64,000 nucleotides of DNA from Mariprofundus sp. NF (lineage in GTDB: Bacteria > Pseudomonadota > Zetaproteobacteria > Mariprofundales > Mariprofundaceae). Under the pieces are notes generated by a model. It saw only the letters and a list, made by a program, of their open reading frames with translations. It had not been told where the DNA came from and did not search any database. The stretch lies in the NCBI RefSeq assembly GCF_013387455.1, contig NZ_VWNC01000002.1, forward strand, positions 1 to 64,000. Reading direction: 5' to 3'. The translations under genes and the position numbers were made by a program. Below are positions 1,958-55,612 of the stretch, in pieces (position 1 is the stretch's first letter; every line of letters begins with the position of its first letter).

Positions 1958-1977
1958 GGAATCTCCCTATAGGACAT

Positions 1978-2119
1978 GCTGATTCATTCAGTACGTCCGT
2001 GCAGCCTATGGATGGGCTGCCAAATCAACCAGGCAAATGGTTGATTTGTGAACAAAAGAAAAACGACGCTTTTTCTTTTGTGAGCTGATTTTTGGCAGGA
2101 GCCAATAAATCAGCATCTC
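1978..2119 (+). repeat. Five-hairpin structured element, copy 1
   Basis: The interval reads as successive hairpins: CTGA/TCAG; GCAGCC (2001-2006) with GGCTGC (2015-2020) around loop TATGGATG; a perfect 11-bp stem 2021-2031/2038-2048 with loop GGCAAA; a perfect 12-bp stem 2052-2063/2070-2081 with loop CGACGC; and a 13-bp stem 2084-2096/2101-2114 with one bulge. The segment TCCGT (1996-2000) could also pair with ATGGA in the first large loop, as in an H-type pseudoknot. It lies between the divergent CDF and gloB genes. A second copy with different stems is at 55262-55410. Confidence 0.75.
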
Positions 2120-2153
2120 CCAAACTCAACTGAATCGCGCTAAGCTACTGCAC

Positions 2154-53927: not shown

Positions 53928-54092
53928 TTCCATTCCTTTCGCAACTGATCTTTATGCTGCTATGATGCCAAAATAAAAGCCGACAATGCGAGTGCAATCG
54001 TATCAGGCATCACAAACAGATAAAATGATCCAGTTTATGGTACGTGATTTGCTTCTGTCGGTGAGATAGAGATGCAACAGAGGAGTAACGAC

Positions 54093-55256
54093 ATGGCCGA
54101 TGAAATTTCCCTTCGCCAACTGCTGAAGGTCATGGTGGATAAAGACGCCTCCGATCTCTACCTGATGGCCGGTGCCCCACCGGGTTACCGCATCAATGGC
54201 ACCATCCTCAGACTTGGTGATACCGAGATGAATCCTGTTACGGTTGAGCGACTGGCAAGTGAGCTGATGACTGAAAAGCAGAAGGCCGATTTCGCCTCCA
54301 GCATGGAGATGAACCTCTCCTCTGCACATGCGGGTCTGGGCCGGTTTCGTGTCAATATCTATCGCCAGCGTGGCTCAGTTGGCATGGTGATTCGTCAAAT
54401 CACCACCGATATCCCCAGTCTTGGCGACCTCAAGCTTCCCGAAGTATTCAAGGATATCTCGATGACCAAACGCGGACTGGTGCTGATGGTCGGTGCGACA
54501 GGTTCGGGCAAATCGACCTCCCTTGCGGCTATGGTGGATTGGCGCAACACCAATCAGGCTGGACATATCATCACCATCGAAGATCCGGTGGAGTTCATGC
54601 ATCCCCACAAAAAATGTTTCGTCACCCAGCGTGAAGTCGGCTCTGATACCGTCTCATTTCAGGCTGCACTGAAAAATACACTGCGTCAGGCACCCGACGT
54701 TATTCTGCTTGGTGAGATTCGTGAACGTGACACCATGGAGCATGCCATCGCCTTTGCCGAAACCGGCCATCTGGCTATGGCCACGCTGCACGCCAACAAC
54801 TCCAATCAGGCGCTGGAACGCATTATCAACTTCTTCCCTGAAGAGCAGCATCAGCAGGTGTATATGAATCTGGCCATGAACCTGCGCTCGATTTTATCCC
54901 AGCGTCTGGTTAAAACTGTGGATGGTGGCCGGGTAGCCGCCATTGAGATTCTGATTAACACCCCGCGCATTGCCGACCTGATTCTCAAAGGTGATATCAG
55001 TGCGATTAAAGAGGCGATGGAGAGTGGTGAGCAGCACGGCATGCGCACCTTTGATCAGGCCCTCTTCCAGCTCTGGAAAGATGAAAAAATCACCGAGGTT
55101 GAAGCACTGAGAAATGCCGATTCAGCCAACAACCTGCGTCTGAAGATGAAGATGCAGAGCATTGATGACGCCAACGATGGTGATGGTAAAACAGGTGTCG
55201 ATGAGATTTTGCAGAATCGCTCAGATGACGATGATGGTATCGAGTTGTCAATCTAA
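54093..55256 (+). CDS. pilU: Type IV pilus retraction ATPase PilU
   Basis: A hexameric PilT-like ATPase for twitching motility. The 387-residue protein has Walker A GATGSGKST (134-142), the Asp box HIITIEDPVEFMH, Walker B LLGEIRERDTMEHAIAFAETGHL and the His box MATLHANNS. The C-terminal EHGMRTFDQALFQL-type pattern (QHGMRTFDQALFQLW) and the tail with KMKMQS separate PilU from PilT. GGAG lies seven bases before the ATG at 54093. No pilT is adjacent. The second five-hairpin element follows directly. Confidence 0.93.
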   Translation: MADEISLRQLLKVMVDKDASDLYLMAGAPPGYRINGTILRLGDTEMNPVTVERLASELMTEKQKADFASSMEMNLSSAHAGLGRFRVNIYRQRGSVGMVIRQITTDIPSLGDLKLPEVFKDISMTKRGLVLMVGATGSGKSTSLAAMVDWRNTNQAGHIITIEDPVEFMHPHKKCFVTQREVGSDTVSFQAALKNTLRQAPDVILLGEIRERDTMEHAIAFAETGHLAMATLHANNSNQALERIINFFPEEQHQQVYMNLAMNLRSILSQRLVKTVDGGRVAAIEILINTPRIADLILKGDISAIKEAMESGEQHGMRTFDQALFQLWKDEKITEVEALRNADSANNLRLKMKMQSIDDANDGDGKTGVDEILQNRSDDDDGIELSI

Positions 55257-55261
55257 GGATT

Positions 55262-55410
55262 CTCTGAAAAAGTCAGAGCATCCGTTCAGGCTACGGACGG
55301 CCTGCCAATATCATGCATGGTAAATGCTTGATATTGTAAGCAAAGACAAAACCACGCTTTTGCCTTTGCGCGCTAAAAAACTACATGGCCGTAGTTTTAT
55401 AGCGTTTCCC
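55262..55410 (+). repeat. Five-hairpin structured element, copy 2
   Basis: Successive hairpins: CTCTGA/TCAGAG (55262-55278); CAGGC/GCCTG (55287-55304) around loop TACGGACG; a 13-position stem 55306-55318/55324-55336 with one mismatch and loop GGTAA; a 12-position stem 55340-55351/55358-55369 with one mismatch and loop CCACGC; and a 14-position stem 55371-55384/55391-55404 with one mismatch. Copy 1 (1978-2119) has the same order, stem lengths, loops and 3-base TRA linker, but different stem sequences. TCCGT (55281-55285) can pair with ACGGA in the first large loop. It lies between the convergent pilU and diguanylate cyclase genes. Confidence 0.78.
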
Positions 55411-55549
55411 TAACAGTAACAACAGAGGCGATTTACTTAGAGCTTTCGTAACTATTCAGTGGCTACATTCAGATCCACGAATGGTTCCAGCCACCTTATC
55501 TGCGCAGTGACGCATCCCCTCACAGTGACAATTGAGCACGAATTAAATA

Positions 55550-55612
55550 CAGATAACCAGAACTACCACGCTTATTCGTGTGCATTCGTGGTTCGATTTT
55601 CTGTTTTTTAGC
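55550..55612. repeat. Short ACCACGAAT-type repeat fragment
   Basis: CTACCACG and CGTGGTTCG bracket a GTGTGCATT centre, followed by a T-rich stretch (TTTTCTGTTTTTT). On the minus strand the motif reads AACCACGAATGCACACGAAT, akin to the larger palindromes in hox and def-fmt. It may be a degraded copy and may also serve as a terminator for pilU. The remaining bases at 55411-55549 show nothing that I recognise. Confidence 0.5.

Follow-up and report, generated by a model that had tools for sequence, protein, structure and literature searches.

Non-autonomous transposons with a structured RNA module and CsrA-site-like loops in Mariprofundus and other Pseudomonadota

CsrA is among the most widespread global regulators, and MITEs, which are non-autonomous DNA transposons, are usually regarded as empty passengers. 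The high-affinity CsrA/RsmE site derived from NMR is an ANGGAX hexaloop placed directly on a stem, and leaving out N, like other variations of the site, reduces affinity 10- to 1000-fold (PMC4005645); the CsrA site selected by SELEX is RUACARGGAUGU (PMC7652899). Several A(N)GGAX hairpin loops are displayed by the sRNAs CsrB, RsmX, RsmY and RsmZ, which have their own promoters, occupy a single locus or few loci and are immobile (general knowledge; PMC4950607). The TwoAYGGAY RNA (RF01731), which occurs in gut metagenomes, gammaproteobacteria and Clostridiales, has been predicted to bind CsrA (PMC2864571, PMC4333381).

The element described here was found in a stretch of 64,000 nucleotides of Mariprofundus sp. 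NF (the window), and in the open-access literature no report of it was found. With the IS5-family-related MITEs it shares terminal inverted repeats, a YTAR duplication, the lack of coding capacity and ends that match IS5_4-type insertion sequences (IS) of related genomes. It differs from them in that its interior is a conserved multi-hairpin RNA module and not a deleted IS, and this module, unlike the interiors of IS5-related MITEs, has been kept across families despite different terminal repeats. The likeness to RsmW, an RsmA-sequestering sRNA, lies in the four hairpins over about 120 nt, the GGA of the outer loops and the 3'-UTR position of the window copy, whereas RsmW is a single-copy chromosomal sRNA. 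With the TwoAYGGAY RNA the element has in common two terminal loops, AYGGAY in that RNA, for which CsrA binding was predicted from the same loop motif (PMC4333381); however, the RF01731 model has no match to the element up to an E-value of 5, and mobility does not form part of the description in the excerpts of PMC2864571 and PMC4333381. The reading favored here, which is judged probable though well short of certain, is that of a MITE that carries a CsrA-sponge-like RNA module and is moved by IS5-family transposases.

The element at the pilU site

The features of the pilU site, and the second copy in the window, are as follows.

54072..55256, + strand: PilT/PilU-family type IV pilus ATPase gene (pilU), with the element directly 3' and in sense
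55253..55256, no strand: left target-site duplication CTAA, the TAA of which is the stop codon of pilU
55257..55409, + strand (the structured RNA strand): five-hairpin MITE, copy 2, 153 bp
55257..55283, + strand: hairpin 1, made up of the left terminal inverted repeat and, after it, an inverted copy of that repeat (GGATTCTCTGAAAAAGTCAGAGCATCC)
55287..55304, + strand: hairpin 2, loop ACGGAC, a CsrA-type ANGGAX hexaloop
55306..55336, + strand: hairpin 3, with a GNAA tetraloop in many relatives
55340..55369, + strand: hairpin 4, with a conserved top (AAAACCACGCTTTT)
55370..55405, + strand: hairpin 5, loop ATGGCC, with GGA in most other copies
55410..55413, no strand: right target-site duplication CTAA
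55637..57490, − strand: GGDEF diguanylate cyclase gene, convergent
about 1972..2122 (core 1998-2114), + strand: copy 1, subfamily B, with two intact loops (ATGGAT, AGGA)

An earlier note on this DNA had described five consecutive hairpins between the convergent pilU (+) and diguanylate cyclase (−) genes, with one mismatch in each larger stem and a further copy elsewhere in the window. All of this is borne out, and the element itself is present, but its start had been set 5 bases too late; the true limits, with CTAA on both sides, are 55257-55409. The + strand RNA folds with −61.4 kcal/mol (z −6.9), which none of 200 shuffles equaled, and the − strand is also far beyond shuffles (z −7.3). The terminal inverted repeats GGATNCTCTGA / TCAGAGNNTCC and GGAAGCGCTGATT / AATCAGCATCTCC lie at the ends of the element, as is typical of IS5-related MITEs, and the 3' arm of hairpin 5 continues into the right one in the window copy.

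The window pilU gene is 99% identical to that of Mariprofundus sp. KV, and the insertion at this site is common to both genomes. Strain KV (L059) is without 214 bp between two ACCACGCTT repeats (window 55351-55583), and the 3' third of the element is gone there; the difference is read as a 214-bp deletion between the repeats in KV, the alternative being a gain of that stretch in the window genome. In M. micogutta and two other relatives, the order of pilU and the cyclase gene is kept without the element.

Transposition and distribution

Aligned copies of the element stop abruptly at the terminal inverted repeats, with YTAR outside. Identical 4-bp YTAR duplications were found in 32 of the 36 copies that have YTAR on both sides, compared to a mean of 13.7 and a maximum of 23 in 5000 permutations. 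Furthermore, for 14 insertions the two flanks were fused so that a single duplication remained, and the fused sequences were sought in related genomes. Nine of ten insertions of a close relative (G015) correspond to contiguous empty sites in the window genome, and two insertions of the window genome are empty in G015, which gives 11 precise empty sites between the two close genomes, several of them with zero length difference. The flanking duplications and empty sites that the earlier note had named as signs of mobility were thus both obtained, and several independent tests show that the element is a MITE, that is, a non-autonomous DNA transposon.

IS5-family transposases that could serve such an element are encoded in two other genomes, namely L161 (316 aa, G003) and L179 (318 aa, G091), which match the NCBIfam model transpos_IS5_4 with 324 and 333 bits. 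The G003 gene is located between the ends GGAGATGCTGATTAATTC and GAAAGCGCTGATCAATTC and is flanked by two copies of the element; subfamily B has two unlike ends, and the two ends of this IS are similar to them, GGAGATGCTGATTAATTC being like a B-type element end. The IS of G091 is intact, with a length of 1.16 kb, a CTAG duplication and the ends GGAGGTGCTGATTAACCC / GGAAGTGCTGATTAACTC. Within the window genome, no autonomous partner with matching ends was identified, and a PF13359 search retrieved no transposase; the current activity of the element in that genome is therefore uncertain. The sole DUF772 protein of the window genome was considered as a partner and rejected, its end motif matching on one side only.

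BLASTN detected further copies in the window genome with E-values down to 7.6e-54, at least 13 significant copies there in total, and copies in 26 of the 61 genomes searched. A covariance model of hairpins 2-5, built from 32 sequences and denoted R1, retrieved at least 26 copies in the window genome, where 30 candidates were scored, and matches in 44 of 120 genomes. In other families, with 150 candidates scored per genome, R1 has at least 99 matches in G041, 88 in G038, 43 in G040, 10 in G057 and one in G048, and across a set of 398 Pseudomonadota genomes it also matches G134, G168, G170, G218 and G396. Searches with the window element and with a G041 copy gave no match in plasmids or phages, and a search with a G057 copy gave none in plasmids. 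The copies of G038, G040, G057, G048 and G170 (L222-L258) have the same core, with terminal repeats of other sequence (TGATGGTTTCGCAA, AGAGCCTGTCGCAG and, flanked by TTAG at either end, CAGGCTGCTGAAA).

Two further arrangements were observed. In G001, head-to-tail copies have one target site in common, with a period of about 154-158 bp (L139, L141, L142, G001:C37:140006-140176). Solo 27-bp palindromes that correspond to hairpin 1 alone are present in the window genome (G000:C3:82418-82452 and G000:C10:8868-8902, which are L022 and L026, and G000:C8:67223-67257); they sit between or beside YTAR sites, one of them between identical CTAG sites, and are possibly the smallest mobile form or a remnant after loss of the interior.

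Placement and structure of the hairpin core

Crude ORF calls place 75 of 76 copies outside long ORFs. Relative to the left neighboring gene, 32 copies are in sense and 39 in antisense; this lack of an orientation bias gives no sign of selection for sense transcription. Divergent regions harbor 18 copies and convergent regions 17. No promoter or terminator consensus was found in or near the element, and there is no terminator T-run.

The full mixed alignment yielded a weak signal in RNAalifold, probably due to gaps, and subfamily alignments with a defined structure were used instead. In the core alignment, double changes occur in 30 of 42 stem pairs, the 42 including three pseudoknot pairs that contribute none. 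Pairing is possible in 90.9% of the cells, compared to about 45% when the partner is slid by one column, and the covariation score is 0.311 versus 0.133 +/- 0.007 in shuffles. MAFFT alignments that were not fitted to the structure contain G-U and A-C combinations in ratios of 128:32 in subfamily A and 36:8 in subfamily B, with sign tests across pairs giving p values of 0.08 and 0.0007, respectively, so that significance is reached only in B. The excess of G-U over A-C indicates that the + strand is the folding RNA. It is therefore well supported that the inner four hairpins form a conserved, covarying RNA module on the + strand, and the preference of the earlier note for an RNA over a plain DNA palindrome gains support from both the asymmetry and the covariation.

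These observations bear on the alternative of a purely selfish MITE with hairpins that work as DNA, in cruciform or single-stranded form bound by the transposase or a host factor, and with GGA loops that are a protein-DNA signal. Mobility itself, the location of the terminal repeats in hairpins 1 and 5, the lack of an orientation bias and the solo palindromes beside YTAR sites would all fit. However, the G-U versus A-C asymmetry and the GNAA tetraloops of hairpin 3 indicate an RNA, on one strand, and hairpins 2-4 have no relation to the terminal repeats and are maintained even as those repeats change from lineage to lineage, so this explanation appears unlikely.

A different question is whether the compensatory changes reflect selection at all. 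Long imperfect palindromes are prone to quasipalindrome correction, and template switching of this kind could have produced the changes with no RNA function involved, an idea with which the decay of single copies agrees. Among private changes, found in one copy each, 39 of 51 break a pair, while pairing is kept in 188 of 310 shared changes; together with the lack of an orientation bias, this suggests that structure and loops are kept in active lineages, whereas single copies seem to drift. Thus, the view of the earlier note that the copies diverge under structural constraint holds for active lineages and not clearly for single copies, most of which, the window copy included, appear to be decaying. 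Nevertheless, quasipalindrome correction would neither favor G-U over A-C nor retain GGA loops where the stems share little sequence, and as the source of the compensatory changes it is considered very improbable.

One proposal of the earlier note finds no support, namely that TCCGT and the loop of hairpin 2 form an H-type pseudoknot that is conserved among copies. In 84% of the alignment cells, pairing would be possible. However, none of the three testable pairs shows a compensatory change, and the TCC of TCCGT is already the 3' arm of hairpin 1. Loop and TCC also vary independently: GGA is kept in copies without hairpin 1 and TCC (L021, L024, L054), and, conversely, TCC is kept where the GGA of the loop has been lost (L036, L058). 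A conserved pseudoknotted RNA is thus hardly credible.

Loops of the CsrA type

Hairpin 2 carries an ANGGAX hexaloop that is closed by C-G in most copies, with A conserved at 98%, G at 92%, G at 93% and A at 97%, while N and X vary. The loop of hairpin 5 is an ANGGAX hexaloop or an AGGAX pentaloop across copies, and in subfamily A the hairpin reads CUACAUGGACGU, which resembles the SELEX sequence RUACARGGAUGU. GGA is present in both loops of 81 of 103 copies and in at least one loop of 99; these counts are over related copies, which deprives them of independence, and independent evidence comes from the agreement of six genomes of other families (G038, G040, G041, G048, G057 and G170), in which all 21 copies have GGA in both loops although stems and terminal repeats differ. 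Paired A(N)GGAX loops on C-G-closed stems are therefore found family-wide. The window copy has one of the two, as ACGGAC of hairpin 2 is intact and the loop of hairpin 5 is ATGGCC, with GGC for GGA; today it is at best a half-site.

It is precisely this pattern that speaks against REP/BIME-like transcription insulators or 3'-end stabilizers, kept harmless between genes, in which the loop sequence would be incidental. The placement of nearly all copies outside long ORFs and the stable hairpins on either strand are in line with such a role. On the other hand, the loop positions that hardly vary, A and GGA, and those that vary freely, N and X, agree exactly with the determinants for CsrA, divergent regions contain copies as frequently as convergent ones, and the T-run of a terminator is missing; a REP/BIME-like nature is thus quite improbable.

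An Rfam scan of the 64,000-nt window at gathering thresholds retrieved tRNAs only, and the CsrB, RsmX, RsmY and RsmZ models have no match in the window. Up to an E-value of 5, the sole match of the window copy was NsiR9 on the other strand, which was read as chance. The nearest Rfam model is that of RsmW (RF02809), the gathering score of which (52 bits) was missed, the best scores being 45.6 (G170) and 42.7 (G057); G057 copies match over the full length below the threshold, with 39.2 and 36.9 bits (E-values of 0.002 and 0.006). Among the 398 genomes, the RsmW model exceeds its cut-off in G123 and G186, which belong to one genus and are taken as Pseudomonas-type, and stays below it in G170, G057, G048 and G386. 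Its best matches coincide with R1 matches in G170 and G057 and lie at a different place in G048. In the reciprocal search, R1 misses the true RsmW loci (L251, L252), and the resemblance is thus one of architecture rather than of demonstrated common descent; a descent from RsmW is not claimed. Weak matches to the RsmW model were also observed for L255-L257.

The genome of the window contains two csrA genes (L159, L160), one of them in the order flgL-csrA-fliW. From the anatomy of the loops, the RNA of the element is predicted to bind CsrA, and it is hypothesized to be a CsrA sponge. According to the favored reading of a MITE with a sponge-like RNA module, IS5-family transposases would cut at YTAR sites and move the element in trans. 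The inner four hairpins of the + strand would display two CsrA/RsmA-type ANGGAX loops, in the first and the last of the four. Once a copy is transcribed, presumably as the 3' untranslated region of pilU at the window site, its RNA would bind a CsrA dimer through the two loops and might thereby serve as a small decoy, much like RsmW or RsmY, or place CsrA on the host transcript. The benefit for the element may lie in decoy activity, in host transcripts being silenced or protected under the guidance of CsrA, or in the relief of the transposase from CsrA control.

A bolder and only tentative extension is a Pseudomonadota-wide class of MITEs with a CsrA-sponge RNA as cargo, the core of which would have been joined to different ends in each lineage and expanded to roughly 100 copies in each of G041 and G038. 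Transposition would then tune CsrA and possibly free the transposase mRNA, and RsmW-like sRNAs could descend from such copies. An RNA with paired CsrA-site-like loops has been retained across several families of Pseudomonadota and with several sets of ends. If this RNA binds CsrA, any gain or loss of transposon copies would alter the dosage of a regulatory decoy, and it would become directly testable whether new Rsm/Csr sRNAs arise from mobile DNA. To our knowledge, it would also be the first candidate CsrA antagonist RNA in Zetaproteobacteria.

Some copies deviate from the common form. In contrast to the other lineages, GGA has disappeared from one loop or from both in several copies of G024 (L036, L111, L114, L115; CATTCATG, CATCCACG). 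An extra hairpin-bearing insert of 70-100 nt is found close to hairpin 3 or within hairpin 4 of L046, L138, L140, L142, L143, L144, L053 and L132, and several of these inserts carry CAGGA-type loops themselves. Finally, the copies of class C (L020, L024, L025, L027, L028) are without hairpin 1 or recognizable terminal repeats and have mostly retained the GGA loops; some are located between genes of operons (hisD-hisC, sdhA-sdhB), and the class C copies are candidates for domesticated copies.
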